From Streptomyces endocoffeicus (lineage in GTDB: Bacteria > Actinomycetota > Actinomycetes > Streptomycetales > Streptomycetaceae): a stretch of 64,000 nucleotides of DNA. The notes below the pieces were generated by a model. The model was not told the origin of the DNA and did not search any database. It saw only the letters and a list, made by a program, of their open reading frames with translations. This document shows positions 15,008 through 51,114 of the stretch, piece by piece. A program made the translations under genes and the position numbers. Location of the stretch: NCBI RefSeq assembly GCF_016741935.1, contig NZ_JAERRG010000008.1, positions 248,001-312,000 on the forward strand, read 5' to 3'. Position 1 is the first letter of the stretch, and each line of letters starts with the position of its first letter.

Positions 15008-15013
15008 GATGGG

Positions 15014-21463: not shown

Positions 21464-21486
21464 GGCTTCTCCTATGGACACGCGCC

Positions 21487-28547: not shown

Positions 28548-28877
28548 ATGGTGACAGTGATCGAGACGTGGCGACTCAAGGAACAGTTCGCCGGACAGTC
28601 GCTGGAACTCATGCAGAAGATGGACGATATCGTCGGGCCGGCCGCCCACGTGGACCCGGGCTGGTGCGAGCACGGCCGGTTCTTCCAACGTCGGAGCAGG
28701 CCCGGCGAGATATGGATGATGTACACCTGGCGCAGCCGGGCCGAGCACGAAGTGTTCATCAAGAACGAGGAATTGCTTCTCACCGACTTCTACGACCGGT
28801 ACTGTGCCGGGCGGCGTGAAATCACCTACTTCGACGAGCTCCCGGTGGACGTCGATGCTGTCGGCACCACTTCCTGA
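28548..28877 (+). CDS. small ABM-like protein of unknown function
   Basis: The 109-residue product looks like a dimeric alpha-beta barrel protein related to antibiotic-biosynthesis monooxygenase (ABM) or EthD-type proteins: VTVIETWRLKEQFAGQSLELM, WCEHGRFFQRR, GEIWMMYTWRSRAEHEVF. Such proteins may be cofactor-free oxygenases, cyclases or chaperones. GGAGG lies about 10 bases before the ATG. It follows an 87-base gap, the largest in this operon, and overlaps the decarboxylase gene by 23 bases, so the two are probably made together. Family assignment is tentative. Confidence 0.6.
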   Translation: MVTVIETWRLKEQFAGQSLELMQKMDDIVGPAAHVDPGWCEHGRFFQRRSRPGEIWMMYTWRSRAEHEVFIKNEELLLTDFYDRYCAGRREITYFDELPVDVDAVGTTS

Positions 28878-33572: not shown

Positions 33573-34948
33573 CCACCACGGCGGAGTCCGGACCGTACAT
33601 CGGCACCGGCGGACCGGCGGGCCTCTGCCTGGAGGACCTCCACGGCTCGCTCACCGACCCTATGTCGGACTCGATGAACCTGCTCAACGAGGTGGCGCAG
33701 CGGTACCCCGAGGCGCTCTCCTTCGCCGCCGGCCGCCCGTACGAGAACTTCTTCGAAGCCGAGCAGGTCCATCGCCACCTGCGGGTCTTCTGTGAGCACT
33801 TGAGCGCCGTACGCGGCTGGTCGGACGAGGAGGTACGGCGGCTGCTCTTCCAGTACGGCCGTACCAAAGGCGTCATCCACGACGTGGTCACCAGGAACCT
33901 GGCGGTCGACGAAGGCTTCGAGCCGGACCCGGAAGCCGTCGTGATCACCGTGGGCTGCCAGGAAGCCATGTTCCTGGTGCTGCGCGCACTGCGGACGAGT
34001 TCCCGGGACGCGGTCCTCGCCGTCTCACCCACCTACCTTGGTTTCAACGGAGCCGCGCGACTGGCCGACATGCCGGTGCTGCCGGTGCGTTCCGGGGACG
34101 ACGGAGTGGACCTCGACGACCTCGTCCGCACCGTGCTGCGGGCGAGGGACGACGGGCTGCGTCCCCGGGCCTGCTACGTGATCCCCGACTTCTCCAATCC
34201 CCTGGGGGTCAGTCTCCGCACGGACACCAGACGCCGGCTCCTCGACCTCGCCAAGGAGCACGATCTGCTGCTGCTGGAGGACAACCCCTACGGTCTCTTC
34301 CCCGCAGGCACGTCCCGCCCGCCTACCCTCAAGTCCCTCGACACCGACCGACGCGTGGTCTACCTCGGCTCGTTCGCGAAGACGGTCATGCCCGGCGCCC
34401 GGGTCGGGTTCGTTGTGGCCGACCAGGAAGTCACCGACGGCGGCGGACGGCGAGTCGGGCTGTTCGCCGACCAGCTCGCGAAGATCAAGAGCATGCTGAC
34501 GGTGAACACCTCACCCGTGGCACAGGCGGTTGTCGCAGGCAGACTGCTGGAGAACGAGCACACGCTGGTCCGGGCCACCGCGCGCGAGGCGGAGCTGTAC
34601 CGCGGTAACCGCAAGGTGCTGCTTCAGGGTCTGGAACAACGGTTCCCGCCGGGCTCCGGGGTTTCCTGGAACACACCCGACGGCGGCTTCTTCCTGGTCC
34701 TGACCGTGCCGTTCCGCACCGACGACGCCCTGCTGGAGCATTCGGCACGGCGGCACCGGGTGATCTGGACCCCCATGCACCACTTCTACGCCGGCCGTCC
34801 CTACTCCCACCAGATCCGCCTGTCGTTCAGCACCCTGCGGCACGAGCAGATCCGGACCGGCCTGGACCGGCTTGCCGGCCTCGTCCAGGAGCAACGGGCC
34901 CAGGCAGGTCAGCACACGACCGACGTACCTCCGTACTCGAACAGGTAA
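33569..34948 (+). CDS. hpgT: PLP aminotransferase, probable (hydroxy)phenylglycine-forming (HpgT-like)
   Basis: The 459-residue protein is a class I/II aminotransferase of the MocR/HpgT-like type. It shows SFAAGRPYENFFE (about residues 50-62), VTVGCQEAMFLVLRALRTSS, YVIPDFSNPLGVSL (about 199-212), LLLEDNPYGLFP and the PLP lysine in YLGSFAKTVMPGARVGFV (about 265-282). It directly follows the HmaS- and Hmo-like genes with an ATGA overlap. In such cassettes HpgT makes L-4-hydroxyphenylglycine from the glyoxylate, often with tyrosine as amino donor to regenerate the precursor. Phenylglycine is an equal option if phenylpyruvate is used. Confidence 0.83.
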   Translation: MTTTAESGPYIGTGGPAGLCLEDLHGSLTDPMSDSMNLLNEVAQRYPEALSFAAGRPYENFFEAEQVHRHLRVFCEHLSAVRGWSDEEVRRLLFQYGRTKGVIHDVVTRNLAVDEGFEPDPEAVVITVGCQEAMFLVLRALRTSSRDAVLAVSPTYLGFNGAARLADMPVLPVRSGDDGVDLDDLVRTVLRARDDGLRPRACYVIPDFSNPLGVSLRTDTRRRLLDLAKEHDLLLLEDNPYGLFPAGTSRPPTLKSLDTDRRVVYLGSFAKTVMPGARVGFVVADQEVTDGGGRRVGLFADQLAKIKSMLTVNTSPVAQAVVAGRLLENEHTLVRATAREAELYRGNRKVLLQGLEQRFPPGSGVSWNTPDGGFFLVLTVPFRTDDALLEHSARRHRVIWTPMHHFYAGRPYSHQIRLSFSTLRHEQIRTGLDRLAGLVQEQRAQAGQHTTDVPPYSNR

Positions 34949-34971: not shown

Positions 34972-36144
34972 ATGCGCCGAATACGCGTTTTCGATGCGAC
35001 ACTCCGTGACGGGGAACAGGCCCCGGGTAACGCGATGTCCCCCGAGCAGAAGCTTTCTCTCGCGCTGAAGCTGGAGGAGATCGGAGTCGACACGGTCGAG
35101 ACCGGCTACCCCGGTTCGTCACCGTCCGACTTCAAAGCCACCCAGCTGATCTCGAAGTCCCTCACCAAAGCCGGTTTCGCGACATTCAACCGCTGCTCGC
35201 GCGAGGACATCCAACTGTCGATGGAGGCTGCCGGGGACAACCCGCGTCACCAGGTGCAGGTCTGCTGCACCGGCAGCGACATCCACCTGCGCCACAAGCG
35301 TGGCATCACCCGGGCCGAGGGCCTCCGTGAGATCGATGACTCCGTCCGGTTCGCCCGGTCACTGGGTGCCGTCGACATCAACCTCGCCGTCGAGGACGCG
35401 AGCCGCGGAGAGCACGAGTGGATCCGCGCACTGGTCGGCACCGCGGTCGAGGCCGGGGCGACCGCCGTGACCCTCGCCGACACCACCGGCTTCGCGGTTC
35501 CGCAGGAGTTCGGTGAACTGATGGCGGCGGTGCGTGCCTGCGTCCCCGACGACATCGTGCTCGCGACGCACTGCCACGACGATCTCGGGCTCTCGCTGGC
35601 CAACGCGCTGGCCGGCCTCGCGGCCGGGGCCGACGAGGTCCAGGCCACGCTCGCGGGCATCGGTGAGCGTTCCGGCAACACCGCGCTGGAGGAGCTGGCG
35701 GCGGTGCTGTCGTACAAGGGCACCGAACTCGGCATGGACACCGGTGTCCGCACCGAACTCCTCGACGAGGCATTCGAGCTCCTCGCCGACGCGATCTCGC
35801 TGGACCGCCCACGCAACAAGGCCATCTTCGGAACGAACTCGTTCGCCACACAAGCGGGCATCCACCAGGCCGCCATGTTGCAGAACCCCGTCACATACGA
35901 GTTCATCAGGCCCGAGAGCTTCGGGCGCCGAAGGTCCCTGCTCGTCGGCAGGCACTCCGGGCGGTCGATCCTGCGGCATCTCCTGTCGCAGTTGGCGGTG
36001 CCGGCCGACGACGACCTGGTGGCCGAGCTGTACCAGGAGTACATCGCCGACCGGCCGAACGGGGAGTGCGACGAGCTGGACGTACTGCGCGACCGGCTGG
36101 CGAGCCGGCTCGGCGTGACGCGCGGTACCGGAGTCGGGGTATGA
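34972..36144 (+). CDS. 2-isopropylmalate/homocitrate synthase-like condensing enzyme (LeuA-like)
   Basis: The 390-residue product is a DRE-TIM acetyltransferase that condenses acetyl-CoA with a 2-oxo acid. Signature parts are [17 protein letters not shown] (residues 6-22), [16 protein letters not shown] (about 165-180), the metal-binding [14 protein letters not shown] (about 197-210) and [14 protein letters not shown] (about 226-239). Housekeeping LeuA carries a C-terminal leucine-sensing domain, taking it well over 500 residues; here the protein stops before it, so it should be free of that feedback. The three following genes provide the isomerase and dehydrogenase for one-carbon elongation. 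The accepted 2-oxo acid is unknown. Confidence 0.87.
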
Positions 36145-37544
36145 GCGGGGCTCCGGCGACGATCATCGACAAGCTCTGGCGCGACGCCGTCGTGTGCACG
36201 GAGCCGGACGGGCCCGATCTGCTCTACGTCGACCTGCACCTCGTCCACGAGGCGACCTCGCCGCAGGCGTTCGAAGGTCTGCGGCTGAGCGGCCGTACGG
36301 TCCGCCGGCCGGACCTGACGCTGGCGGTCGAGGACCACAACGTACCGACCGACTCGCTGACCGTCTCCGACGCCCTCAGCCGGGAGCAGCTGGAGGCCCT
36401 GCGCCGCAACTGCGCCGACCACGGCATCGCCCTGTTCCCGCACGGCCACCGCCGGCAGGGTGTCGTACACGTCGTCGGCCCGGAACTCGGCCTGGTCCAG
36501 CCCGGGATGACCGTGGTGTGCGGAGACAGCCACACGTCCACGCACGGCGCGTTCGGTGCTCTCGCCTTCGGTGTGGGGACGAGCGACGTCGAACACGTCC
36601 TCGCCACCCAGACCGTGGCCGTGCAGAAGCCTCGGACGATGCTGGTGGAGTTCAGCGGGTCCCCGACCGACGGCGTCACCGCCAAGGACCTGATGCTGGC
36701 CCTCATCACGCAGATCGGCGCCAACGGTGCGCACGGCCACATCGTGGAGTACCGGGGCGACGCGGTGCGCTCGCTCTCCATGGAGAGCCGCATGACGATG
36801 TGCAACCTCAGCGTGGAGGCAGGGGCCAGGGCCGGGCTGATCGCCCCTGACGAGACGACCTTCGCCTACCTATCGGATCGGCCCGGCAGTCCCGCGGGGC
36901 CGGCCAGGGAGGAAGCGGTCGCCCACTGGCGCGCCCTGACCAGCGACCCCGGTGCCGTCTTCGACCGCACGGTGACCGTCGACGTCTCGGGCCTGACCCC
37001 GTGGGTGACCTGGGGCACCAACCCCGGCCAGGCCGTGCCCCTCGCGGGCACAGTGCCCGATCCCGCGGCCTTCACCGACCCCGATGAGCGGGCAGCGGCA
37101 CGACGCGCCCTCGACTACATGGACCTCGCCCCCGGCACACCGATGCGGGAGATCGGTATCGACACGGTCTTCATCGGTTCCTGCACCAACGGCCGGCTCG
37201 ACGACCTGAGGGCGGCGGCGGAGGTACTGCGCGGCCGCCGGGTCCTCGACGGCGTACGCGTACTGGTGGTGCCCGGCTCCATGGACGTCCGCGTCCGTGC
37301 CGAACGAGAGGGGCTGCACGAGGTCTTCGCCGACGCGGGGGCCGAGTGGCGCCTGCCGGGCTGTTCCATGTGCCTCGGTATGAACACCGACCGGCTCCCC
37401 GGCAGGCAGCGCTGCGCCTCGACCAGCAACCGCAATTACGAGGGCAGGCAGGGACCGCGGGCGAGGACCCATCTGGTGTCTCCTGCCATCGCCGCCGCCA
37501 CAGCGGTCACCGGCCGGCTGGCACTGCCCGCAGACCTTCCTTGA
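36141..37544 (+). CDS. aconitase-superfamily isomerase large subunit (LeuC-like)
   Basis: The 467-residue protein is a 3-isopropylmalate dehydratase-type large subunit. Iron-sulfur ligands are in [13 protein letters not shown] (about residues 346-358) and [12 protein letters not shown] (about 407-418). Substrate-site parts [19 protein letters not shown] (about 127-145) and [14 protein letters not shown] (about 428-441) are intact. Length equals normal LeuC. The start overlaps the LeuA-like stop (ATGA), and LeuD follows after 8 bases, so the two subunits are expected to pair. It moves the hydroxyl on the elongated malate intermediate. Confidence 0.9.
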
Positions 37545-37552
37545 GGAGAACC

Positions 37553-38173
37553 GTGGAACCGCTGAGAAGCCACACCGGAAGGTGTCTTCCGCTGCGCCGC
37601 AGCAACGTGGACACCGACCAGATCATCCCCAGCGAGTACTGCCGGAGCGTGCGCCGGACCGGCTATGCGGACGCGCTGTTCGCCAGATGGCGAACGGACC
37701 CCGACTTCGTACTCGAACAGCCCGAACGGGCCGGTGCGACCGTGCTGTTGGCGGGCGCCCACTTCGCCACCGGCAGTTCGCGCGAACACGCCGTATGGGC
37801 GCTGCGGGACTGGGGCGTCGCGGCCGTCATCGCCCCGAGCTTCGGCGACATCTTCTGCCGCAACGCTCTCAAGAACGGCCTGCTCGCCGTCGCACTGCCG
37901 GATCGGGCCGTCGCGTCGCTGCTCGAACGCGCCGAGCGTGACGCCGCGTTCGAGACCACGCTGGATCTGGTGGAGTGCCGGGTGTCGGCCGGCGAACAGA
38001 GCTGGGCCTTCGACATCGACGCCCGGGCACGACGGTTGCTGCTCGCCGGACACGACGACATCACGGCCACCCTCACGAGGCAGGACGCCATCGCCCGTCA
38101 CGAGAGGACCCGCCCGCACTGGCTGCCCGCGCTCACGCCCGGGTCGGCGCTGTTCCCCACGGAACAGTCCTGA
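37553..38173 (+). CDS. isopropylmalate isomerase small subunit (LeuD-like)
   Basis: The 206-residue product is the swivel-domain partner of the LeuC-like protein. It shows RSNVDTDQIIPSEYCRSV (about residues 16-33), GAHFATGSSREHAVWALRDW (about 65-84), SFGDIFCRNALKNGLL (about 91-106). I chose the GTG at 37553 because GAGGAG lies 4 bases upstream; the frame extends upstream over leuC without homology. Length is normal for LeuD. Confidence 0.9.
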   Translation: MEPLRSHTGRCLPLRRSNVDTDQIIPSEYCRSVRRTGYADALFARWRTDPDFVLEQPERAGATVLLAGAHFATGSSREHAVWALRDWGVAAVIAPSFGDIFCRNALKNGLLAVALPDRAVASLLERAERDAAFETTLDLVECRVSAGEQSWAFDIDARARRLLLAGHDDITATLTRQDAIARHERTRPHWLPALTPGSALFPTEQS

Positions 38174-38183
38174 GGAGCCGGAC

Positions 38184-39209
38184 ATGACAAGGATCGCCGT
38201 CATTCCCGGGGACGGGATCGGCCCCGAGGTGGTGGAGCAGGCCGTACTGACGCTGGACGAGTTCCGGCTGGGCCTGGACTTCGACTTCCTCGACCACGTC
38301 AACGCCGACACCTATCTCCGCACGGACGTGGCGCTCTCCGACGAGGACGTCGCACGGGTGGCCTCCAGCCGCTCGGCGTTGCTGGGGGCGATCGGCGACC
38401 CCCGGGTCGGGTCGCCGGCGTATGGCAGAGGCGTCCTGCTCCGTCTCCGCTTCGACCTGGACCTCTACGTGAACTACCGCCCGGCGAAGCTCCTCAGTGA
38501 CCGCCTCAGTCCCCTTCGGCGTGATCGCGCCCGGGCAGTGGACTGCGTCGTCATCAGGGAGAACACCGAAGGTCTCTACACGGGCCTGGGGGGCTCGCTC
38601 CGTCCCGGAGGGGGACACGAGATCGCGCTCGACATCGATCTCAGCACCCACCGGGGCACGGCTCGGGTCGTCGACCACGCGTTCTCCGTCGCCCGCCGAG
38701 AGGTCTGCATGGTCGACAAGGCGAACGCGGTGGAGCACGGCGGCGGCCTGTGGCAGCGCTGCTGGAGAACGGCCGCGGCGCGCCATCCGGATATGGCGAC
38801 CCGGCACATGTACGTCGACGCCGCCGCGATGCGGATGGTCACCGATCCCACCACCTTCGACGTGATCGTGACCAACAACTCCTACGGCGACATTCTCAGT
38901 GACGTCGCGTCAGCTGTCGCCGGCGGAATCGGCACGGCGGCCTCGGCCAACCTCAACCCGGAACGCGGCTTCGGCCTCTACGAACCGGTCCACGGCAGTG
39001 CGCCCGACATCGCGGGCAAGCAGGTCGCCAACCCGATCGGCGCCATCCTCAGCGCCGGGCTCCTCCTCGCCGACCTCGGACACACCGCCGAGGCCGCTGC
39101 TCTGCGGCATGCGGTCGCCCGGGCCGTCACGGAGGGGGAGACCACGCCCGACCTCGGCGGACCGCTCGACACCCGCAAGGCGGGACAGGCCGTGCGCGCG
39201 CGGCTGTGA
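38184..39209 (+). CDS. isopropylmalate/homoisocitrate dehydrogenase-like enzyme (LeuB-like)
   Basis: The 341-residue protein is a beta-decarboxylating dehydrogenase that would complete the elongation by oxidising and decarboxylating the malate to a 2-oxo acid one carbon longer. It shows IAVIPGDGIGPEVVEQA (residues 3-19), IRENTEGLYTGLGGSLRP (about 122-139), the catalytic lysine in VDKANAVEHGG (about 174-184), TNNSYGDILSDVASA (about 230-244) and YEPVHGSAPDIAGKQ (about 264-278). The overall sequence is close to actinobacterial LeuB, but the RENTEGLY stretch also occurs in homoisocitrate dehydrogenases. GAGGAGCC precedes the ATG. Confidence 0.88.
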   Translation: MTRIAVIPGDGIGPEVVEQAVLTLDEFRLGLDFDFLDHVNADTYLRTDVALSDEDVARVASSRSALLGAIGDPRVGSPAYGRGVLLRLRFDLDLYVNYRPAKLLSDRLSPLRRDRARAVDCVVIRENTEGLYTGLGGSLRPGGGHEIALDIDLSTHRGTARVVDHAFSVARREVCMVDKANAVEHGGGLWQRCWRTAAARHPDMATRHMYVDAAAMRMVTDPTTFDVIVTNNSYGDILSDVASAVAGGIGTAASANLNPERGFGLYEPVHGSAPDIAGKQVANPIGAILSAGLLLADLGHTAEAAALRHAVARAVTEGETTPDLGGPLDTRKAGQAVRARL

Positions 39210-39266: not shown

Positions 39267-40331
39267 ATGTCCAACAAGGTCGAGTCGGTCGAGTCGGTCG
39301 AGGTGGTCGACGCGTCGGTGCAGGAGGAGTGGAAGTCGGTGGCCGCGACCGGCGCCAGGGAACTGGCCTCGTCGTACGTGCTGTGCAACACCGTGCTGGG
39401 ACTGGCGCGGTCGGGGGTGGCCGAGCGGCTGTCGGCCGAATGGACGCCTCTCAAGGAGCTGGTACCGCCGGGCGGGTACACCGAGCTCGTGCGCAACCTC
39501 CTGCACTTCGCGGAGGTCCGTGGCCTGGCCGAGTCGCAGGAGGACTCCTGGCGGCTGACGGCGCACGGCGGCTCGCTGCTCGGCGAGGTCCCCGAGGCGG
39601 TGATCGGCTACTACGCGGAAGCCTACGGCCCGGTGCTGAGCAACATCGAGGGACTTGCCACCGGCCGACTGCACTACGGATCCGACGTGGCACGTGACAC
39701 CGAGGCGCTCGGCCGCCGCTGCGAGGTGCTGTTCCGCAGCGTCGGTATGAACGTGGTCCGCGAGCTGATCGGAAGGTACCGCGCCGAGCGGGTCCTGGAC
39801 CTCGGCTGCGGGACCGGCGGGATGGTGCTCGACCTGTGCCGCGAGGATCCGCGACTGCGGGCGGTGGGTCTGGACATCGCCGAGGACGCCGTCGCGCTCG
39901 CCTCGAAGCGGGCAGCGGAGGAAGGGCTCCAGGACCGGGTGTCCTTCGTCGTCGGTGACGCCTTCGTGCCCCAGGAGTGGCCCGCGGCGGCCCGGGAATG
40001 CGACCTCTTCATCGCCGTCGGCGCGGTGCACGAGCACTTCCGGGACGGCGAGGCGGCCGTGGTCGAACTGCTGCGCGCGTACTCGGAGCTGCTCAGCAGC
40101 AAGCCGGGAAGCGTACTGGTGCTCGCCGAGCCCGAACTGTTCCGGGACGCCGAGGACGCGGACTTCTTCCTGGTGCACGCCCTCACCGAACAGGGTTTCC
40201 CACAGCGCCGGGAACCCTGGCTGAAGGTGATCGAAGCGGCGGGGCTGACGTGCCGGCGGGTCCAGTCGGTGCCCAACACCATGTTCCGCTTCGCGTACTA
40301 CGAGATCACCTCCGCAGCGGCACCGCGGTGA
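39267..40331 (+). CDS. SAM-dependent methyltransferase with N-terminal dimerisation domain
   Basis: The 354-residue product has an N-terminal helical winged-helix-like part (about residues 30-110; ELASSYVLCNTVLGLARSGVAERL) and a Rossmann core with VLDLGCGTGGMVLDLCRED (about 174-192), AVGLDIAEDAVALA (about 197-210) and VSFVVGDAF (about 223-231). This two-domain form is shared by small-molecule O- and C-methyltransferases, including 2-oxoacid C-methyltransferases such as MppJ. Its place between the elongation cassette and an aminotransferase suggests methylation of the elongated 2-oxo acid or a derived amino acid. The N-terminal VESVESVEVV is a short repeat of no clear meaning. AGGAG lies 4 bases before the ATG. 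Confidence 0.82.
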   Translation: MSNKVESVESVEVVDASVQEEWKSVAATGARELASSYVLCNTVLGLARSGVAERLSAEWTPLKELVPPGGYTELVRNLLHFAEVRGLAESQEDSWRLTAHGGSLLGEVPEAVIGYYAEAYGPVLSNIEGLATGRLHYGSDVARDTEALGRRCEVLFRSVGMNVVRELIGRYRAERVLDLGCGTGGMVLDLCREDPRLRAVGLDIAEDAVALASKRAAEEGLQDRVSFVVGDAFVPQEWPAAARECDLFIAVGAVHEHFRDGEAAVVELLRAYSELLSSKPGSVLVLAEPELFRDAEDADFFLVHALTEQGFPQRREPWLKVIEAAGLTCRRVQSVPNTMFRFAYYEITSAAAPR

Positions 40332-41467
40332 AGCCGTCCCTGCGAGCGCAGGCGGTCTCTCCCATGGAGCTGGCCGGCCTTCAGCGCCTGTCCGGAACGG
40401 GAGCGCTGGACATCGCGCTCGGCATCCCCCCGGGAGACCCGCCTGCCGCCGTCGTGGAAGCGGCCGTGTCGGCACTGCGCCGCGGCTTGCACCAGTACGC
40501 CGACCCGGCAGGGCTGCCCGAACTGCGCGCTCTCATCGCGGCAGACGCCTTCCGGACACACGGTGTGGTCGTGGACCCGGACACCGAGGTGACGGTGACG
40601 GTAGGCGCCACGGAAGGTCTGCTGACGGCGCTCCTCGCCGTCACCGACCCCGGTGACGAGGTCCTCCTGCTCGAGCCCTACTTCGAGCTCTACCCGGGCG
40701 TCGTCGAGCTGGCCGGAGCGGTGCCGCGCGCCGTCCGGCTGGAGGCCCCGGACTGGCGGTTGACCGAGGCCGCGGTGGTGCGCGTACTGTCGCCGCGCAC
40801 CCGTGCCGTCGTGCTGAACACACCGCACAACCCGACCGGCCGGGTCTTCGACTCCCATGAACTCCGTCTTCTCATGGACATCTGCGCTGAACAGGGCATC
40901 GTCTGCATCACCGACGAGGTCTACGACTGCACGGTCTTCGACGGGCGCCGCCACCTGTCCCCGCTGGCCATGCCGAGGGCCCGCCCGGACAGCATCGTGG
41001 TCGGAAGCCTGTCCAAGAAGCTTCAGATGACGGGGTGGCGCATCGGATACTGCATCGCCGATCCGGAGACCACGACGGTACTGCGCACGATTCACGAACA
41101 CACCACGGTTGGCACCAACCACCCCTTGCAGGCCGGCGCCCAGGCGCTGACGGCATCCGACGTCCTGGACGGTCGCCTGCTGTTCCAGCAGCAGAGGGAC
41201 GAACTCGTGGCCGGCCTCTCCTCGCTCGGATTCACCGTGAGCCCGCCGGAAGGGGGCTGGTTCGTCTTCGCCGGCACCGAGGCCCTCGGCTGGTCCGCGC
41301 GGGAGCTCTCACGCGCGCTGGCCGTCTCGGCAGGCGTGCTCGTCGCGCCGGGAACACCCTTCTTCGGGCGGCCGGAGGACGGTGACCGCTGGATACGGAC
41401 GACCTTCGTCCGCGGCGCGGAAACGACCCGAGCGGCGCTCGACCGGATGGCCGCCTACCTGTCGTGA
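40328..41467 (+). CDS. class I/II PLP aminotransferase
   Basis: The 379-residue protein is a standard fold-type I aminotransferase. It shows ALGIPPGDPPAAVVEAA (about residues 31-47), HQYADPAGLPELRALIA (about 56-72), VTVGATEGLLTALLA, LNTPHNPTGRVF (about 160-171), ITDEVYDCTVFDG (about 195-207) and the PLP lysine in VGSLSKKLQMTGWRIGY (about 226-242). The GTG start overlaps the methyltransferase stop (GTGA). Being last in the operon after the elongation and methylation genes, it probably converts the finished 2-oxo acid to an amino acid. A perfect hairpin terminator follows. Confidence 0.88.
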   Translation: MKPSLRAQAVSPMELAGLQRLSGTGALDIALGIPPGDPPAAVVEAAVSALRRGLHQYADPAGLPELRALIAADAFRTHGVVVDPDTEVTVTVGATEGLLTALLAVTDPGDEVLLLEPYFELYPGVVELAGAVPRAVRLEAPDWRLTEAAVVRVLSPRTRAVVLNTPHNPTGRVFDSHELRLLMDICAEQGIVCITDEVYDCTVFDGRRHLSPLAMPRARPDSIVVGSLSKKLQMTGWRIGYCIADPETTTVLRTIHEHTTVGTNHPLQAGAQALTASDVLDGRLLFQQQRDELVAGLSSLGFTVSPPEGGWFVFAGTEALGWSARELSRALAVSAGVLVAPGTPFFGRPEDGDRWIRTTFVRGAETTRAALDRMAAYLS

Positions 41468-41581: not shown

Positions 41582-42790
41582 TCACCACAGGACGGGGAGT
41601 TCGACCGGCCCGAACGTGCCCATGTGAGCGAAGTCGATCTCGTCGGCAGGCACGGCGAGCCGGAGCTTCGGCAGCCGGCGCAGCACAGTGGTCAACGCCG
41701 TCTGGAGTTCCGCGCGAACCAGGCTCTGCCCCAGACACTGGTGGCTGCCGTAGCCGAACGCCAGGTGGTGGCGAGCGGTGCGGCCGAGGTCCAGCGTCTC
41801 CGCGGCGTCGAACACCGTGCCGTCACGGTTGGCCGCGGAGAGAGCGACGAACACCCCGTCGCCCGCGCGCAGCAACTGGCCGCCGATCTCGACGTCCTCG
41901 GTCACCACGCGCGCGAATCCGGCGTCGGCCGCCGAAAGGAACCGCAGCAACTCCTCGACGGCGGCGGCCTCGACCGCAGGGTCGTCCGTGTCCCGCAGCA
42001 TGCCCGACTGGACGGGATCGTCGAGCAGCGCCAGGACACTGAGTCCGATCATGTTCGTCGTCGCCTCGTGCCCCGAGATCAGCAACAGCAGGGCGAGATC
42101 GGCCAGCTCGTCCCGGCTGATGTGACCGGCAGCCAGCTGCTCGCCGACCAGCCGGCTGATGATGTCGTCCTCGGGCCGGCGCTCCTTGACCTTCGTCAAC
42201 TCGCGCAGGAAGCCGCGCATCTCCTCACCCGTCCGTGCGACCTGTTCGGCCGAGGAGTGGGTGTCCAGCAGCGCGATGCTGCGCGACTGGAAGAAGTCAT
42301 GCTCCTCGTAGGGGATCCCGAGCATCAGCGATATGACCAGAGAGGGGAAGGGGAGGGCGAACTCGGCCATCAGATCGGCGGGCGAGCCGTTGCGTGTCAT
42401 CGTGTCGATGAGGTCGTCGGCCAGCTGCTGGATGCGGGGACGCAGCGCCGCCGTCCGCCTGGCCGAGAAGTCACGGGCGACCATGCTCCGCAGCCGCGTG
42501 TGACCGGGATCGTCCATCCGGTTGAAGGAGGCTCGCAGCGGTGTCGCGACCTGCGAGGCCGGCGAGACCGTGGGCATGTCGTCCCGGGCTCCGTCGCTGC
42601 TGATGCGTGGGTCGCTCAGGACGGCACGGACGTCCTCGTAGCGAGTCGCCACCCATGCCTCGCGTCCGTTCCACAGGCGGATCTTGCGCAGGCCGCCGGC
42701 CCTGCTCCACGCGACATAGGCATCCGGCGGGTCGAATGGGCAACCGACGCGGGTGATCGGGTAGTTCGGAAGGTCGGCGTCTGTGTTCAC
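41582..42790 (-). CDS. cytochrome P450
   Basis: The 402-residue product is a bacterial P450 monooxygenase. It shows the I-helix LALLLLISGHEATTNMIGL with the acid-threonine pair, the K-helix EELLRF, and the heme-binding FGYGSHQCLGQSLVR with the cysteine ligand. The N-terminus lacks a membrane anchor, so it is soluble and needs ferredoxin partners, none of which is encoded nearby. The GTG start at 42790 overlaps the MFS stop; the frame extends upstream only as shadow. It probably hydroxylates the cluster product or a carrier-bound amino acid. Substrate unknown. Confidence 0.95.
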   Translation of the reverse strand: MNTDADLPNYPITRVGCPFDPPDAYVAWSRAGGLRKIRLWNGREAWVATRYEDVRAVLSDPRISSDGARDDMPTVSPASQVATPLRASFNRMDDPGHTRLRSMVARDFSARRTAALRPRIQQLADDLIDTMTRNGSPADLMAEFALPFPSLVISLMLGIPYEEHDFFQSRSIALLDTHSSAEQVARTGEEMRGFLRELTKVKERRPEDDIISRLVGEQLAAGHISRDELADLALLLLISGHEATTNMIGLSVLALLDDPVQSGMLRDTDDPAVEAAAVEELLRFLSAADAGFARVVTEDVEIGGQLLRAGDGVFVALSAANRDGTVFDAAETLDLGRTARHHLAFGYGSHQCLGQSLVRAELQTALTTVLRRLPKLRLAVPADEIDFAHMGTFGPVELPVLW

Positions 42791-44040: not shown

Positions 44041-44197
44041 GACGCCAGATCCTAGGCAGGGGCGGGTAATTCGGGAGTCATCGATTTAGGCAAGTGGGAA
44101 TGACCGCAGAATTACTCGCGAATCCTAGAGTGAGGGCCATCCGGCCGATGTGGCCGCAATGGGTCCGCGATGCGGGGAAAACCGCGAGGAGTGTCTG
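44041..44197. promoter_or_regulatory. divergent promoter region of the MFS and IleRS-like operons
   Basis: These 157 bases are richer in A and T than their surroundings around 44065-44125 (ATTCGGGAGTCATCGATTTA), fitting back-to-back promoters. I see no T-box-like stem array, and the space is short for one. GAGGAG at 44185-44190 is the ribosome site for the GTG start. Confidence 0.45.
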
Positions 44198-47100
44198 GTG
44201 GGGTACTCGAAAACGAAGCCGAGCGAAGGCGTGCCCGCACGTCCGTTCCTTCCCGGCGTCGAACGAGCAGTCCTCGAATACTGGGAGAGCGATCAGACTT
44301 TCCGGGCGAGCGTGGAGGCACGCGGGACCGATGCCGACGGCGGAAGCGAGTTTGTGCTCCTCGACGGACCCCCCTTCGCTGACGGTCTCCCGCACTACGG
44401 TCATCTGCTGGCCGGTTACGCCAAGGACGCCGTCTCGCGTTACCGGACGATGCGGGGTGACCGCGTCGAACGCCGCTTCGGCTGGACGTGCCACGGGCTG
44501 CCTTCCGAGATGGAAGTGGAAAAGCAACTCGGTATCTCCTCCAAGCGGGACATCGAGTCGTTGGGCGTCGACGCATTCAATCGGGCCTGCCGTTCTTTCG
44601 TCATGCGCCATACGCAGGAGTGGCGGGACTACGTCAGTCGCCAGGCGCGCTGGGTGGATTTCGACAACGACTGCAAGACGATGGACCTGACCTACATGGA
44701 AAGTGTCATGTGGGCCTTCAAAACGGTGTGGGACAAGGGATTGATCTACCAGGGACACTCGATCTCCTGGTACTGCGGATCCTGTGAGACACCGCTCTCC
44801 GATTCCGAGAGCGAGGGCACGATGGACCACAGGGACACCGGACGCGAGCAACGGGACCCGGAACTGACCGTGCGACTGCGGCTGGAAAGCGGCGAGCTGG
44901 CTCTCCTGTGGACCCGCGCGCCGTGGGTGCTGCCGTCCACCCTCGCAGTGGCGGTGCACCCCGAGGCCGAGTACGTCACGGTCGAGCACGGCGGCGAACG
45001 CTACCTGCTGGCCGCGAGCCGGCTGTCGGACTACGCCCGCGAACTGGGCGAGGACGTCGCCGACCGCGTCGTGGCCACGACCCTCGGCGCCGATCTCGCG
45101 GACCGGCGCTACACCCCGCCCTTCGACTTCTTCGCCGACCACGACAACGCGCACCGCCTGGTCACGGCGAGCGATGTCAGTACCGATGAGGGAACCGGAC
45201 TCGTACCCGTCGCCCCCGCCTACGGCGAGACCGACCAGGCCGTCGCCGAGGCCGCCGGTATCGCCCTGGTGCTTCCCGTCGACGCGGGATGCCGGTTCAC
45301 CGACGAGGTCGCACCGTACGCCGGCCGGCCGGTCCTCGATGCGAGCCCCGCCATCGTGCGGGATCTGGAGGCGTCCGGTGCCGTGCTGCGCCACGCGACG
45401 CACCGTCACAGGTGCCCGCACTGCTGGCGATGTGGGACGCGGCTGCTCGAGCGCGCCGTGCCGTCCTGGTTCCTGGCCGTGGACGGGATTCGCCGCAGAA
45501 TGCTCGAACTCAACCAGCAGATCTCCTGGACGCCGGAGCGTGTCCGCGACGGCCTGTTCGGCAAGTGGCTGGAGAACGCGCACGACTGGAACATCTCCCG
45601 GAACCGGTACTGGGGTGCTCCGATGCCGGTCTGGATCTCGGACGACCCCGCCTTTCCGAGGACCGACGTGTACGGCTCGCTGGAGGAGCTGCGACGGGAT
45701 TTCGGAGTGCAGCTGTCCGACCTGCACCGCCCCGCCATCGACGAGCTGACCAGGCCCAATCCCGACGACCCGACCGGACGGTCGACAATGCGCAGGATCC
45801 CGGAAGTCCTCGACTGCTGGTTCGAGACGGGGTCGATGCCCTTCGCCCACGTCCACTACCCGTTCGAGAACACGGGATGGTTCGAACGCCACAACCCGTG
45901 CGACCTCGTGGTCGAATACCACGCCCAGACGCGCGGCTGGTTCTACTACATGCACGTCCTGGCCACCGCGCTCTTCGACCGCCCGGCCTTCGACAGCTGC
46001 TCCGTTCTCGGAGTCGTGACGGGCACCGACGGTCATGCGATGTCCAAGTCACGCAACAACTACCTGGACATCCCCGCGGTGTTCGACCGCGACGGATCCG
46101 ATGCGATGCGCTGGTCGTTGCTCAGTTCACCGCTCGTGCGCGGCAGCGACCTCGTGGTCACCGAGCGAAACAGCCAGGAGGCGCTGCGCCAGGCGGTCAT
46201 GCCGCTGTGGAACGCCTGGGCGTTCCACGCCCTGCACGCCGGAACCGCCGGAAGAGAGGGACGCCGCCACAGCGGGAGCACACAGCTGCTGGACCGGTAC
46301 CTTCTCGCCAGAACCCGCCTGCTCGTGGGCGAGACCACACGGGCCATGGAAAGCCACGACCTGGCGGCCGCGTGCGCGCTTATGCGCGACTTCCTGGACG
46401 CGCTCACCAACTGGTACATCCGCTGTTCACGGGCCCGGTTCGCCGGCGGTGACACCGACGCGATCGACACGCTGCACACGGTGCTGGAAATCCTGTGCCG
46501 ACTGATGGCACCGCTGCTGCCGATGATCAGCGAGCACGTCTGGCGGGGCCTGACCGGCGAACGCTCGGTCCACCTCACCGACTGGCCGGCCGAATCGGAA
46601 CTGCCGGCGGACGATCCACTCGTAGCCGCCGTGGAACGGACTCGGCAGATCGTCTCGACCACACTGGCCCTGCGCCGGGCGGACGGCCTGCGGATCAGGC
46701 TGCCCCTGGCCAGACTCACCGTCGCGTGTGACGACCACGGCGTCCTCGAACCCTTGACCGGTCTGATCCGTGAACAGGCCAACGTCAAAGAGGTCGTTCT
46801 CGCCGCCGACCCCACCACCTACGGGACGATCCAACTCTCGGTCAACGCCCGGGCCTGCGGCCGCCGACTGGGCAGCCGTACCCAGGAGGTCATCGACGCG
46901 GTCGCGGCCGGGGCCTGGGTCAGGGAGCCGGACGGCGGCATCCGTGTGGCGGGGATACCCATGCGGCCCGAGGAGATCGACGAGCGCCTGGTCGCCGACA
47001 CCCCCGGATCGGCCGTACTGCCGAACGGCGCCGGTCTCGTCGTACTCGACACCCGGGTCACAGAGGAATTGGCCGCCGAGGGCATGGCCCGTGACCTGGT

Positions 47101-47350
47101 GAGAGTCGCCCAGCAAGCCCGGCGTGCCGCGGGGCTGCGGCTGCTCGACCGGATCGAGCTGAACTTCGAAGTACCGGACGACGTGGCCGCCGCCGTCAGG
47201 CCGTACGAGGCGTTCATCGCGCGAGAGACCGTGGCCGACACGGTGTACTTCAAGGCCGTCGGCCGAGATGCCTTCACGGGCTCCGTCGGAAACGGAGCGC
47301 GGGCGAGAGCGTCGGTGAGCACGGTGCACACCGCGAGCGGGCCGCGATGA
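44198..47350 (+). CDS. isoleucyl-tRNA synthetase paralogue, probable resistance or aminoacyl-transfer enzyme
   Basis: The 1050-residue protein is a full-length class I IleRS of the long, type 2-like form. ATP-site motifs are HYGH (residues 66-69) and AMSKS (614-618). The anticodon-binding region includes FLDALTNWYIRCSRARF, and a zinc-type CPHCWRCGT lies near 407. The editing domain is altered: the usual WTTTPW reads WTRAPW (238-243) and the usual GTGxVHxAP reads GTGLVPVAP (332-340), losing threonines and a histidine. In the SB-203208 pathway an IleRS-like protein (SbzA) transfers L-isoleucine to a sulfonamide; alternatively this is a drug-resistant target copy. The GTG at 44198 is preceded by GAGGAG. 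The ATGA overlap couples it to the adenylation gene. Confidence 0.9.
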   Translation: MGYSKTKPSEGVPARPFLPGVERAVLEYWESDQTFRASVEARGTDADGGSEFVLLDGPPFADGLPHYGHLLAGYAKDAVSRYRTMRGDRVERRFGWTCHGLPSEMEVEKQLGISSKRDIESLGVDAFNRACRSFVMRHTQEWRDYVSRQARWVDFDNDCKTMDLTYMESVMWAFKTVWDKGLIYQGHSISWYCGSCETPLSDSESEGTMDHRDTGREQRDPELTVRLRLESGELALLWTRAPWVLPSTLAVAVHPEAEYVTVEHGGERYLLAASRLSDYARELGEDVADRVVATTLGADLADRRYTPPFDFFADHDNAHRLVTASDVSTDEGTGLVPVAPAYGETDQAVAEAAGIALVLPVDAGCRFTDEVAPYAGRPVLDASPAIVRDLEASGAVLRHATHRHRCPHCWRCGTRLLERAVPSWFLAVDGIRRRMLELNQQISWTPERVRDGLFGKWLENAHDWNISRNRYWGAPMPVWISDDPAFPRTDVYGSLEELRRDFGVQLSDLHRPAIDELTRPNPDDPTGRSTMRRIPEVLDCWFETGSMPFAHVHYPFENTGWFERHNPCDLVVEYHAQTRGWFYYMHVLATALFDRPAFDSCSVLGVVTGTDGHAMSKSRNNYLDIPAVFDRDGSDAMRWSLLSSPLVRGSDLVVTERNSQEALRQAVMPLWNAWAFHALHAGTAGREGRRHSGSTQLLDRYLLARTRLLVGETTRAMESHDLAAACALMRDFLDALTNWYIRCSRARFAGGDTDAIDTLHTVLEILCRLMAPLLPMISEHVWRGLTGERSVHLTDWPAESELPADDPLVAAVERTRQIVSTTLALRRADGLRIRLPLARLTVACDDHGVLEPLTGLIREQANVKEVVLAADPTTYGTIQLSVNARACGRRLGSRTQEVIDAVAAGAWVREPDGGIRVAGIPMRPEEIDERLVADTPGSAVLPNGAGLVVLDTRVTEELAAEGMARDLVRVAQQARRAAGLRLLDRIELNFEVPDDVAAAVRPYEAFIARETVADTVYFKAVGRDAFTGSVGNGARARASVSTVHTASGPR

Positions 47351-48903
47351 CGGGCACCGGGCAACGCCTCGAACGCCTGGTCTCCGACCGGGCCGAACGC
47401 AGCCCGGACGACGTCGCCGTGGTGGACGCCACCGGGCACCTGACGTTCGGAGAGCTGGAGCGGCGCGCCAACCGCGTGGCCAACGCCCTCCTCGCGGACG
47501 GTCTGCTCCCCGGCGACCGGGTCTGTCTGCTGGTTCCGAAGTCGGCCCCGGCCATCGCCGCGATCCTCGGGATCCTGAAGGCCGGAGGAGTGTGTGTACC
47601 TCTGGACGAGACCGGCCCGGACTTGCGTCTGGCGGCGGTCGTGCGACAGTGCACGCCGTGTCGGCTGCTCGTGGCCCATGAGTGCTCGGCCGTGGCGCGG
47701 CGCGTGGCGGGCATGCTCGACCCGTCCGCCCTCACGGGCGTGTTCCGTCTCGGGGAAGAGGAGACCGCCGAGGATTCCGCCCCCGCACCGGTCCCGGCCG
47801 GTGACCAGGCTGCCTACATCCTGTTCACGTCCGGTTCCACAGGGCTGCCGAAGGGCGTGGTTCTCACCCACGGCAACGTGGCGCACTTCGTCACATGGGC
47901 GAACTCGCAGTTCGGTCTGCGTCCCGGTGACCGGATCTCGTGTCAGCTGCCACTGTGCTTCGACGGATCCCTCTGGGACGTCTTCGGGTCTCTGTCCGCC
48001 GGGACGGAACTGCACCTGATGTCCGGGCGCGACAACCTGCTTCCGAGCACGGTCGCCGACTTCATCAGAAGGGCACGTCTGAACCAGTGGCTCACCGTGC
48101 CGTCGGTCCTCACCTCGATGGCCGGCCTGGACGTGGTCTCTCAGGAGGACTTCCCCGAACTGCGGAGGATCTTCTGGGGAGGTGACGTCGTCCCGCTCCC
48201 CGTCCTGCGGTACTGGATGACACGCCTGCCCCACGTGCGGTTCACGAACATGTACGGCCCGACGGAAACGACGATCGTGGCGAGCTGCCACACGCTTCGG
48301 CAGATCCCGGGGGAGGACGCGGGACCGGTTCCGATCGGCACGCCGGTACCCGGGAAGCGTTTCCAGGTGCTGGACGCCGACATGCGTCCCGTCGACCGGG
48401 GGAGCGTCGGTGATCTGTACATCTCCGGCGCCGGACTCACACCAGCCTACTGGCGCGCTCCCGCCCTGACGGACAGCTCGTTCACCGAGTGGCCGGCGGG
48501 CTCCGGCAGGCGCTGGTACCGGACCGGAGACCTGGCTCGGCAGGACGGCCGGGGCGAGTTCCACTTCCACGGTCGGGGGGACCGACAGATCAAGTCGAGT
48601 GGTCACCGTGTCGAACTGGACGAGGTGGCGGCCGCACTGACCGCCCTGTCTGATGTGGGGGACGCTGCCGTGGTCAGCATCCCGGCCCCTGAGGCCGAGG
48701 GGAACCGGATCTGTGCGGCATACGTACCAGCGGCCGGTGCGCGGCCGGACGTGACCCGGCTGCGCACCGCGCTGGCCGCGAAACTGCCGCAGTACATGCT
48801 GCCTGCGCACTGGCGTGAGTGTGACTCACTGCCGACGAACGTCAACGGAAAGACCGACCTGCTGGCTCTCAGGCAAATATTCGTCGACGACAGGAGGAAA
48901 TGA
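47347..48903 (+). CDS. stand-alone amino acid adenylation domain protein
   Basis: The 518-residue product is a free-standing NRPS-type adenylation enzyme. It shows YILFTSGSTGLPKGVVLTHG (A3), CFDGSLWDVF (A4), MYGPTETTIVAS (A5), WYRTGDLARQDGRGEFHFHG (A7-A8, shown in part) and NVNGKTDLLAL (A10 with catalytic lysine). By eye the specificity code is D-G-W-L-F-G-M-I-V-K; the leading Asp favours an alpha-amino acid, and Trp at the third place recalls phenylalanine-type pockets. It loads the carrier protein encoded next. (Hydroxy)phenylglycine, phenylalanine or an isoleucine analogue are candidates. The code alignment is approximate. Confidence 0.9.
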   Translation: MTGTGQRLERLVSDRAERSPDDVAVVDATGHLTFGELERRANRVANALLADGLLPGDRVCLLVPKSAPAIAAILGILKAGGVCVPLDETGPDLRLAAVVRQCTPCRLLVAHECSAVARRVAGMLDPSALTGVFRLGEEETAEDSAPAPVPAGDQAAYILFTSGSTGLPKGVVLTHGNVAHFVTWANSQFGLRPGDRISCQLPLCFDGSLWDVFGSLSAGTELHLMSGRDNLLPSTVADFIRRARLNQWLTVPSVLTSMAGLDVVSQEDFPELRRIFWGGDVVPLPVLRYWMTRLPHVRFTNMYGPTETTIVASCHTLRQIPGEDAGPVPIGTPVPGKRFQVLDADMRPVDRGSVGDLYISGAGLTPAYWRAPALTDSSFTEWPAGSGRRWYRTGDLARQDGRGEFHFHGRGDRQIKSSGHRVELDEVAAALTALSDVGDAAVVSIPAPEAEGNRICAAYVPAAGARPDVTRLRTALAAKLPQYMLPAHWRECDSLPTNVNGKTDLLALRQIFVDDRRK

Positions 48904-48906: not shown

Positions 48907-49203
48907 ATGAACGTGTCTCCCGATAGGCAAGACGTCGCGCAGACGGTTTTGGACTGTCTGCGGAACAAACTGTTCCTCGATGGAGTGACGGTCGACACCC
49001 ACCTGATCGAGTCCGGCCTGATCGACTCGGTCGGGTTTATCAGGATGTTCGTCGTACTGGAGGAGGAGTTCGGCATAGAGGTCACCGCCCGGGATCTGTC
49101 GCTGGAGCGGTTCCAGAACGTCGGCAGCATCAGCCGGTTCGTGATCGAAAAACTGGAAGAGGGCGGCGGCAGCGAAATGCCAGTGGATGTGGTGCGGGCA
49201 TGA
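48907..49203 (+). CDS. peptidyl/acyl carrier protein
   Basis: The 98-residue protein is a carrier protein with the phosphopantetheine serine in ESGLIDSVGFIRMFV (about residues 35-49) followed by LEEEFGIEV. A strong ribosome site (GGAGG) lies inside the gap with the adenylation gene, and the stop overlaps the next start (ATGA). It is the natural partner of the upstream adenylation enzyme and probably donates its amino acid to the following GNAT. Confidence 0.92.
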   Translation: MNVSPDRQDVAQTVLDCLRNKLFLDGVTVDTHLIESGLIDSVGFIRMFVVLEEEFGIEVTARDLSLERFQNVGSISRFVIEKLEEGGGSEMPVDVVRA

Positions 49204-50246
49204 GTGACTATCGGATCACGGCGTACGCGCCGCGGCATCGGAACGCGGTGGTCGAGTTCCAGCAGATGCTCTGGCAGGGCGGCGCCAGGGGCAACTCCGC
49301 TTACTTCGACTGGAAGTTCGGGGACAACCCCTACCTGGACGACCGTTACGTCACGTTGGCATGGCAGGGATCCGAGCTCGTCGGGATGCTCGGCGTCTTC
49401 GGATCGTACTGGGAGGTCGACGGCCACGGCAGGGTGATGCTGCCGTGCCTCGCTGACACCGTGGTGGCTCCGGCGCACCGGGGCGGACCACTGTTCGGGC
49501 GCATGCTGGGGTGGCTCGTGGACCGGCTGCGAGCCGACGAGGTGCCATGGCTGCTCGACTTCGGCGACCAGCCGGCCGGGCCCGCCATGCTGATGAGCGG
49601 CTGGACGGCGGTCGGCCCCTGGCCCGTCGCCAGCGCCGAGCGCGAGGTCTCCGGGAGGGAGCAGGGGGCGTGGGACGCGCAGGAAGCCGTTCGGGGCCCC
49701 CGCTCCGGAGCGACGATCACGCCCCTCGCGAACAGCGTCCCCGAGATGCCGGCGATGGCCGCCAAGCTCGACACGCGTGGCAGTGTCCGCGTGGTCCGTG
49801 ATGAGGAGTACTTCCGCTGGCGGAACGCGAATCCGCTGGCCCGGTACTTCCACCTGGTGGCGGAATCGCAGGGGACGGTCGGCTACCTGATAGCCCACCG
49901 GACGGCGGTCGACACGGACGACGGCCCCACTCCGACCACGATCGTGGAGTGCGAGGCACTCGACGACGACGTATGGCGCGACCTGATCGAGACGGCTGTC
50001 GCAACCGTTCCGGGCAAGGTGGTGACCATGTGGGTGCGTGACCTCGCCCCTGCCCGTGAACAGTCCCTCGGGTCGCTGGGGCTTTCCCTGACACGACCCA
50101 GCGGCCGGCTGAGCCAGGACATCCACCTGCCGAAGCTCGTGATGCGCTCCACCGGCGCGGTCGACGGCGACTCCGCCCCGCTCTCCACGCTCACCTCCCC
50201 GGAGGTATGGGATCTGCGGGGCGTCTCGGGCCGCGGATGGCGTTGA
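49200..50246 (+). CDS. GNAT-fold (two-domain) acyl/aminoacyltransferase
   Basis: The 348-residue product is larger than usual acetyltransferases and looks like a tandem GNAT-fold protein. The first half has YRITAYAPRHRNAVVEFQQML, FDWKFGDNPYL, the CoA/pantetheine-type strand and turn CLADTVVAPAHRGGPLFGRML (given in part: VVAPAHRGGPLFGRML, about residues 83-98), and LDFGDQPAGPAM. The second half is less conserved. It follows an adenylation enzyme and a carrier protein, mirroring SbzC in SB-203208 biosynthesis, a GNAT that transfers an amino acid. I infer the same type of reaction: transfer of the loaded amino acid to an amine or hydroxyl of the core. Confidence 0.83.
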   Translation: MSDYRITAYAPRHRNAVVEFQQMLWQGGARGNSAYFDWKFGDNPYLDDRYVTLAWQGSELVGMLGVFGSYWEVDGHGRVMLPCLADTVVAPAHRGGPLFGRMLGWLVDRLRADEVPWLLDFGDQPAGPAMLMSGWTAVGPWPVASAEREVSGREQGAWDAQEAVRGPRSGATITPLANSVPEMPAMAAKLDTRGSVRVVRDEEYFRWRNANPLARYFHLVAESQGTVGYLIAHRTAVDTDDGPTPTTIVECEALDDDVWRDLIETAVATVPGKVVTMWVRDLAPAREQSLGSLGLSLTRPSGRLSQDIHLPKLVMRSTGAVDGDSAPLSTLTSPEVWDLRGVSGRGWR

Positions 50247-50385: not shown

Positions 50386-51114
50386 ATGGACACAATGAAG
50401 CACCAGCCGGACGACGAGAACGAGGTGCACGACCTGGTCACTTTCGAGGACCCGGACCTCAATCGTGTCACGCCTCTCGCGCAATTTCCGGAAGGGGTCG
50501 CTCTCGCGATAGTCGAGAAACTGGCCAACATCGTGCGACAGGCGCACGGAACCGAGACCGCGACGCGCCCTGACGAGGACGGCATCGTGCGTGCCCAGAG
50601 TTTCGAAGAGGGCAATGTCTACATGACGGAAAGGCCCTTCGAGGGATACTTCGCCGACCGCTACCTCATGGACTTCTACGACGTCGAGGAGCGCGACATC
50701 TGTTCCCGGATGCATCTGCACACGGGACTTCGCTTCGTCCGCATGATGACCGGGCCGGCCACGCGGATCAGGGTGTCCAGCCTGTCGCCGTTCATCGTCT
50801 GCGACGTACCGGGAGTGACTCCCTTCGTCCCGCACGCCTTCGAGGACGACCTGCCCGGAACCCCGCCCGGAGTGCAACGGACCCGGTACAACCTGATCGT
50901 GCCCGAGAACTCGTGGCTCGACATGCAGGTCCCCCGAGGCGTCTCCCACCAGTTCAACGCGATCGGGCCGAACGCCGTAATCGACTCGGTACATCCCGAG
51001 GAATCCATCGAGACGTTCCGCGAGAGCATGAGCAGTTACCGCATGATGGCCCAGACCGTCTTCCTCGCCGAGGAGAAGGAAGGCGCCAGCACCTGCGCCG
51101 CGCTGCCCGGTTGA
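50386..51114 (+). CDS. cupin protein with cysteine-dioxygenase-like 3-His site
   Basis: The 242-residue protein has two cupin motifs. Motif 1 reads MHLHTGLRFVRMMTGP (about residues 105-120), with HxH but Arg where most cupins have Glu. It resembles the HxHTxS..FLKLLxG stretch of cysteine dioxygenase. Motif 2 reads VPRGVSHQFN (about 182-191), giving the third His. A 3-His iron site is the mark of thiol dioxygenases. In SB-203208 biosynthesis the cupin SbzM turns cysteine into a sulfonamide aldehyde. I infer a similar oxidation here. The ATG at 50386 is favoured by AAAGGTGGGG upstream; a GTG at 50362 is possible. A 139-base gap separates it from the GNAT gene, so it may have its own promoter. 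Confidence 0.75.
   Translation: MDTMKHQPDDENEVHDLVTFEDPDLNRVTPLAQFPEGVALAIVEKLANIVRQAHGTETATRPDEDGIVRAQSFEEGNVYMTERPFEGYFADRYLMDFYDVEERDICSRMHLHTGLRFVRMMTGPATRIRVSSLSPFIVCDVPGVTPFVPHAFEDDLPGTPPGVQRTRYNLIVPENSWLDMQVPRGVSHQFNAIGPNAVIDSVHPEESIETFRESMSSYRMMAQTVFLAEEKEGASTCAALPG

Follow-up and report, generated by a model that had tools for sequence, protein, structure and literature searches.

Gene content of the locus

The window, that is, the whole 64,000-nucleotide stretch of Streptomyces endocoffeicus DNA analyzed here, shares a block of about 40 kb (10767-51123) with a locus of S. parvulus JCM 4068 (L001, L029, L039, L040), in three pieces at 85–88% DNA identity, and no material difference between the two was seen in this common block. 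The similarity stops nine bases past the stop codon of a gene for a cupin-like protein (P0001), which thus closes the conserved block. By its sequence, the block is a cluster of the SB-203208/altemicidin type. The sbz cluster was represented in our comparisons by the locus of genome G175, and the predicted genes are as follows.

14153..15823, minus strand: methyltransferase and divergent SAM hydroxide adenosyltransferase, within the set of SbzP loci examined shared only by this locus and S. parvulus
16299..17894, plus strand: SARP-like regulator (family named by reading the sequence)
17877..19019, minus strand: SbzN-position SIS-domain protein (sbz locus comparison)
19067..19876, minus strand: SbzO-position BtpA family protein (sbz locus comparison)
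19895..21481, minus strand: SbzP-like PLP enzyme, 65% to G175; best solved relative PDB 8k3h, PseP, E 2.5e-169
21487..22326, minus strand: SbzQ-position TauD-like oxygenase (sbz locus comparison)
22667..24295, plus strand: SbzL-like acid:AMP ligase, 59% to G175; pocket NGFVVAGNF
24324..25694, plus strand: SbzJ-like aldehyde dehydrogenase, 70% to G175
25637..26227 (start not settled), plus strand: SbzI-like GNAT, 57% to the G384 copy; weak Pfam GNAT match, E 0.007, below the cut-off
26239..27237, plus strand: SbzH-position aldose-epimerase-like protein, 64% to G175
27248..27520, plus strand: SbzG-position carrier protein, 44% to G175 (assigned from similarity and sequence inspection)
27504..28460, plus strand: SbzF-position luciferase-like monooxygenase, 69% to G175
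28548..31313, plus strand: small protein with no Pfam match (28548-28877), PLP decarboxylase, and PhyH oxygenase
31330..34948, plus strand: 4-hydroxymandelate-synthase/HPPD-like protein, alpha-hydroxyacid oxidase, and aminotransferase (arylglycine-type route)
34972..39209, plus strand: LeuA/LeuC/LeuD/LeuB-like chain-extension genes
39267..40331, plus strand: methyltransferase, 30% to G175 SbzD over half its length
40328..41467, plus strand: class I/II aminotransferase
41582..42790, minus strand: cytochrome P450
42787..44040, minus strand: SbzR-like MFS exporter, 62% to G175 (assigned from similarity and sequence inspection)
44150..47350, plus strand: SbzA-like isoleucyl-tRNA-synthetase-like protein, 61% to G175 SbzA; HYGH at 82, AMSKS at 630
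47347..48903, plus strand: SbzB-like adenylating enzyme, 52% to G175; pocket DGWVWGMIV
48907..49203, plus strand: carrier protein, matching the sbzK-position gene of G175 at 41%
49200..50246, plus strand: SbzC-like GNAT transferase, 53% to G175
50386..51114, plus strand: P0001, unclassified cupin and proposed SbzM substitute, terminal gene of the conserved cluster; H110, H112, H188, and R116 invariant

Homologs of 15 of the 18 sbz genes of the G175 locus (A, B, C, F, G, H, I, J, K, L, N, O, P, Q, and R) were identified in the window, with the G384 copy rather than that of G175 used as the SbzI query, and the match to sbzD was weak. The combination that characterizes SB-203208/altemicidin-type clusters, an SbzP-type PLP enzyme with SbzI, SbzJ, SbzL, and a carrier, is present in the window cluster, whereas the SbzM gene is not: in comparison with 12 other SbzP loci, no homolog of sbzE or sbzM was found in it. 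The window cluster further differs from that of G175 in that sbzD is replaced or diverged and the SbzB pocket is changed, and it additionally carries a DUF62-like gene, the HmaS/Hmo/aminotransferase and LeuABCD genes, the PLP decarboxylase, PhyH, and the P450. It constitutes a new SB-203208-type cluster.

SbzP is reported to build a bicyclic core from NAD and SAM (PMC11610977; PMC10491745), and the DUF62-like divergent SAM hydroxide adenosyltransferase (15014-15823) lies within the cluster beside this SAM-using enzyme. The SARP-like regulator is 36–44% identical to comparable genes in six of the SbzP loci besides S. parvulus, in some cases over part of the length, and the next best match to SbzA in the window's genome is 39% identical. 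Two glycosyl hydrolase family 92 genes (52284-56066 and 60924-63878) lie to the right of the cluster, outside the block shared with S. parvulus.

An unclassified cupin family with invariant histidines and arginine

The P0001 ORF encodes a cupin-like protein of 242 amino acids, and both stretches quoted in an earlier sequence-only reading of the gene, MHLHTGLRFVRMMTG and PRGVSHQFN, are present in its translation. The frame is open further upstream to 50284, which yields a long form of 276 amino acids with a GC content by codon position of 0.62/0.43/0.82, typical of a Streptomyces gene; because the alignment with most relatives begins at K5 of the shorter form, translation likely starts at 50386 or at the next ATG, 50395. 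No match to P0001 was obtained among Pfam, NCBIfam, or PDB sequences at E values up to 10. One scan of genome contigs revealed relatives at 66–95% identity in 13 loci from Streptomyces, Kutzneria, Gordonia, Nocardia, and Prauserella, and a family alignment of 28 rows was assembled from these loci and further genomes, G175 included. On this evidence, P0001 represents a so far unclassified cupin family without a Pfam or NCBIfam match.

Motif 1 of cupins has the form HxHx3-4E, in which the Glu is the acidic ligand. All 28 rows share H110, H112, R116, and H188, so that the motif is not due to chance, and Y93, C106, R108, and H203 are likewise invariant. R116, four residues past H112, occupies the slot of the acidic ligand, and the acidic residue expected of the cupin superfamily is accordingly replaced throughout the family; the replacement and the three histidines, the third included, had been noted in the earlier reading and hold in every row.

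The AlphaFold2 model of P0001, built from 14 sequences, has a mean pLDDT of 68.4 and a pTM of 0.70, with pLDDT below 50 at residues 112-114, in the putative metal-site region. Its short strands (109-111, 117-122, 176-181, and 188-193) fit a cupin with the HxH on one hairpin and the third histidine on another. The three histidines may together bind a single Fe(II), the iron centre that the earlier reading held to be likely. The best VIA-align match was YxaG quercetin dioxygenase (Z 9.2, rmsd 3.3, 132 residues aligned), Foldseek rows were mostly cupins with probabilities near 1 (best E 9e-4), and by both methods the structural neighbors are cupins of many functions. A double-stranded beta-helix cupin fold is thus predicted with modest confidence from a low-confidence model.

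Relationship to cysteine dioxygenase and SbzM

The cysteine dioxygenase motif combines HxHT and a distal histidine, with no acidic fourth ligand. P0001 resembles cysteine dioxygenase (CDO_I, PF05995) in this sequence pattern, its histidines being putative ligands, but the resemblance for which it had been likened to that enzyme is limited to HxHT...F and a hydrophobic stretch, and homology is not detectable. A CDO_I profile run over the window's own genome identified four genes, P0001 not among them, and hhalign of P0001 against a profile of 17 CDO rows gave a probability of 0.2%, within the 0.1–0.3% of unrelated controls, both profiles being shallow. With no CDO_I match in Pfam and no profile-profile signal, P0001 is not a recognizable member of the cysteine dioxygenase family; of the initial assignment, the cupin fold remains as a prediction, and the link to a recognizable cysteine dioxygenase family falls away. 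Comparisons with the low-confidence model provide no evidence either way: the best 50 VIA-align rows include no thiol dioxygenase by name, and the sole one among the Foldseek rows, a cysteine oxidase from plants (PCO4), ranks 43rd.

SbzM is described as a cupin of the SB-203208 pathway in Streptomyces sp. NCIMB 40513 that converts cysteine to 2-sulfamoylacetaldehyde, encoded in a 20-kb sbz cluster of 18 genes in two operons (PMC6331615). The G175 locus consists of 18 genes over 20,496 bases (~20.5 kb) in the order sbzA-R, with an A-C operon followed by D-R in reverse, and its genes agree with the published letters (A, IleRS-like; B and L, ligases; C and I, GNAT; D, methyltransferase; G and K, carriers; J, aldehyde dehydrogenase; P, PLP enzyme). 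Moreover, the residue numbers printed for SbzA (HYGH, T92, Y565, and AMSKA; PMC12945691) are those of the G175 protein (HYGH 61-64, T92, Y565, AMSKA 605-609). The 13th gene of this locus, in slot M, encodes a Cupin_2 protein, and G175 has its P0001-like gene about 6 kb past the last sbz gene. Genomes G357 and G384 match all 18 sbz genes of G175 and have no P0001-like gene genome-wide. Given the gene order and count, the letters, and the SbzA numbering of G175, SbzM very probably belongs to Cupin_2, and P0001 is therefore something else.

Profile comparison agrees with this distinction. Hhalign of P0001 against the slot-M Cupin_2 protein gave a probability of about 2% over 14-20 columns. Four unrelated controls scored 0.1–0.3%, and the positive control, SbzM against the short Cupin_2 proteins found in other clusters, reached 98%; as the profiles are shallow (Neff <2 where shown), only clear similarity would be revealed. 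A genome-wide search detected no SbzM-like gene in the genome that encodes P0001. An early idea that P0001 is SbzM was dropped on the gene order of G175, G357, and G384 and the lack of detected profile similarity. The two proteins are alike in being of cupin type, in being encoded together with SbzP-, SbzJ-, SbzL-, and SbzI-like proteins, and in their predicted place in the pathway; they differ in that SbzM, as identified by gene order, is a Cupin_2 protein with the motif HTHPGDH, to which no similarity of P0001 was detected.

Replacement pattern among SbzP clusters

With SbzP as the query, clusters were identified in 11 of 391 other Streptomyces genomes. A family-wide sample of 394 contributed 6 more genomes, whereas a class-wide sample of 394 genomes returned only the window's own cluster (1/394) and added none. 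A P0001-like cupin is present in 6/6 SbzP clusters without an SbzM-like Cupin_2 gene (G137, G200, G1007, G1055, G864, and G910), compared with 2/12 clusters with one (G002, G020, G100, G175, G191, G335, G357, G371, G384, G861, and two regions of G953, one of which has two SbzP copies; Fisher one-sided p = 0.0015). These counts cover clusters found through SbzP, with the window's genome excluded, G200, which holds the same cluster as the window, kept, and the Kutzneria cluster, found through the cupin, left out. As the cupins of G137 and G1007 are nearly identical, the count is also given with the two merged (5/5 vs 2/12, p = 0.0034); in the family sample alone, it is 4/4 vs 0/3 (p = 0.029). 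Both a P0001-like and an SbzP gene occur in 4 of the 391 Streptomyces genomes (10 and 11 with each, respectively; own genome excluded; p = 7e-5).

The SbzM-like Cupin_2 gene is full length in five clusters (G175, G191, G357, G384, and one G953 region, G953a) and short in seven; in 9 of 12 it occupies the SbzM position, next to the SIS gene, and it lies elsewhere in the G020, G100, and second G953 (G953b) clusters. None of the eight genomes with P0001-like cupins only, those of the window and Kutzneria included, yielded an SbzM-like gene in genome-wide searches, and among the sbz genes tested, sbzM alone is wholly absent from all 8 P0001-only clusters, sbzD having at best a weak match in two. 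Replacement is not the sole arrangement, as G175 and G371 hold both cupins, in G371 within one run of genes. In the stretches examined, an SbzJ-like aldehyde dehydrogenase was found in 3/8 P0001-only vs 9/10 Cupin_2-only clusters (two-sided p = 0.043), so the product of P0001 may differ from the SbzM aldehyde. The Kutzneria viridogrisea cluster (L002, L059, L060) contains two SbzA-like genes, 37% and 54% to that of the window, and an asparagine-synthase-like gene adjoining the cupin gene.

Adenylation pockets

Nine standard A-domain pocket positions were mapped through the SbzB alignment. The predicted acid pocket of the SbzL-type ligase, NGFVVAGNF, is found in 7/8 P0001-only and 7/8 Cupin_2-only clusters in which a ligase was found (none above 40% was present in G191 and G953a) and in one of the two clusters holding both cupins. 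Mean ligase identity is 96% in the pocket vs 56% overall. This near constancy of the pocket suggests that the ligase activates one and the same acid in P0001-only and Cupin_2-only clusters, an argument that leans on the A-domain positions so placed and on the ligases being homologous.

The SbzB pocket differs at 2/9 positions between the window (DGWVWGMIV) and G175, G357, and G384 (DGWVWGFIA). In view of this change and of the arylglycine-type and LeuABCD-type genes, the second amino acid of the window cluster product is probably not (2S,3R)-beta-methylphenylalanine. The run of hydroxymandelate-synthase, oxidase, aminotransferase, and LeuABCD-like genes at 31330-39209 suggests a chain-extended or arylglycine-type amino acid.

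Other genomic contexts of the family

Four P0001 relatives, of which the window's own genome encodes one, adjoin an acid ligase and NRPS sequence (L016 with L099 on G000 contig 194, L036, L037, and L038); the NRPS comprises about 3,800 amino acids in three of these loci and a 351-aa piece only in G294. In the NRPS-type loci, as in G864 and G910, the P0001-like cupin gene is directly beside that of an AMP ligase, and the G910 ligase is 52–53% identical to the ligases of two NRPS-type loci.

In 14 further loci from Nocardia, Gordonia, Prauserella, and Streptomyces (L003-L013 and L030-L032; for example, L003:5743-10711), the cupin belongs to a conserved AsnB-like block. All 14 encode an Asn-synthase-like protein and a zinc-ribbon/membrane-like protein, the zinc-ribbon matches being weak, and two proteins without a Pfam match were called in 9/14 and 8/14 loci. 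The two copies of the Asn-synthase-like protein that were inspected lack the glutaminase Cys at position 2. In the family tree, the NRPS and AsnB contexts each occupy one side of one branch, and the sbz context requires two changes. No close SbzJ-like gene or SbzP core was found in the examined stretches of NRPS- or AsnB-type loci, and because these contexts come without a close SbzJ-like gene, cysteine-to-sulfonamide conversion need not be the general role of the family.

Discussion

We propose, with a probability of roughly 0.55, that P0001 is a metal-dependent cupin that stands in for the non-orthologous SbzM in an SB-203208/altemicidin-type cluster. We infer the cysteine substrate, the metal and its identity, the product, and the pathway steps from the genes and residues described above. 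P0001 would oxidize and decarboxylate L-cysteine to a two-carbon sulfonamide unit, from which the SbzJ-like aldehyde dehydrogenase would yield 2-sulfamoylacetic acid; the SbzL-like ligase would load this acid onto a carrier protein, the SbzI-like GNAT would join it to the SbzP-made bicyclic core, and the SbzA-like and SbzB/C-like proteins would add isoleucine and the second amino acid. In the several relatives with no SbzJ-like gene in the stretch examined, the cupin may itself supply the acid or depend on a different oxidase.

The gene context makes 2-sulfamoylacetaldehyde or its acid the likely product line of P0001. The sequence-only reading had suggested this aldehyde, presumably by derivation from the SbzM family, and its chemistry is plausible in that the SbzA, B, C, I, J, L, and P homologs point to a cysteine-to-sulfonamide route, yet P0001 belongs to neither family to which it was likened, SbzM included.

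The residues themselves would also suit a 3-His thiol dioxygenase: three invariant histidines and a motif-1 position without an acidic residue are compatible with an enzyme that turns cysteine or a small thiol into a sulfinic or sulfonic acid, which the ligase would activate instead of 2-sulfamoylacetate. Such a product, being already an acid, would explain the lack of an SbzJ-like aldehyde dehydrogenase in the examined stretch of 5/8 P0001-only clusters and would fit the cupin-ligase adjacency in the NRPS-type loci, G864, and G910. However, SbzL reportedly did not accept cysteine sulfinic or cysteic acid (PMC6331615), the ligase pocket hardly varies between the cluster types, and the window cluster has kept its aldehyde dehydrogenase, so we consider this explanation unlikely. 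Equally doubtful in our view is a role apart from thiols, in which P0001 would act on the bicyclic core, the NAD nucleotide remnant, or an amino-acid side unit. The presence of an SbzM-like Cupin_2 gene alongside the P0001-like one in G175 and G371, the NRPS and AsnB-like contexts that show no SbzP core in the stretches examined, and the functional variety of the structural neighbors would accord with such a role, but it leaves the 6/6 vs 2/12 replacement pattern, and the complete absence of sbzM alone, among the sbz genes tested, from all 8 P0001-only clusters, unaccounted for.

That P0001 is SbzM itself, an ordinary ortholog of the published enzyme, is very improbable. The product proposed in the earlier reading would fit, and SbzM homologs, reported from many actinomycetes, are said also to lie beside NRPS and ATP-grasp genes, neighbors that P0001-like genes share, those in PKS, NRPS, and ATP-grasp clusters being described as without known products (PMC9113183). 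Against this stand the Cupin_2 protein in slot M of G175, the complete sbz sets of G357 and G384 in genomes devoid of P0001-like genes, and the lack of detected similarity between the two families when the positive control reached 98%.

Under the substitution of SbzM by P0001 that we favor, a broader possibility, which we offer only tentatively, is that a second, unrelated cupin lineage evolved N-S bond formation from cysteine to a sulfonamide, in several clusters without a cluster-encoded aldehyde dehydrogenase perhaps continuing to 2-sulfamoylacetic acid, and that NRPS clusters use the cupin and ligase pair for sulfonamide-bearing peptides. N-S bond-forming enzymes are rare, with only two earlier examples counted in PMC6331615, and we found no description of the P0001 cupin family or of an SbzM substitute in the open-licence PMC literature. 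If true, a second cupin solution would represent convergent evolution of an N-S bond-forming reaction and would offer a new way to search for sulfonamide natural products, as domain-based mining cannot see a family that lacks a Pfam match. It would also mark the window cluster as the source of a relative of SB-203208, an isoleucyl-tRNA synthetase inhibitor, with a second amino acid that is probably different.
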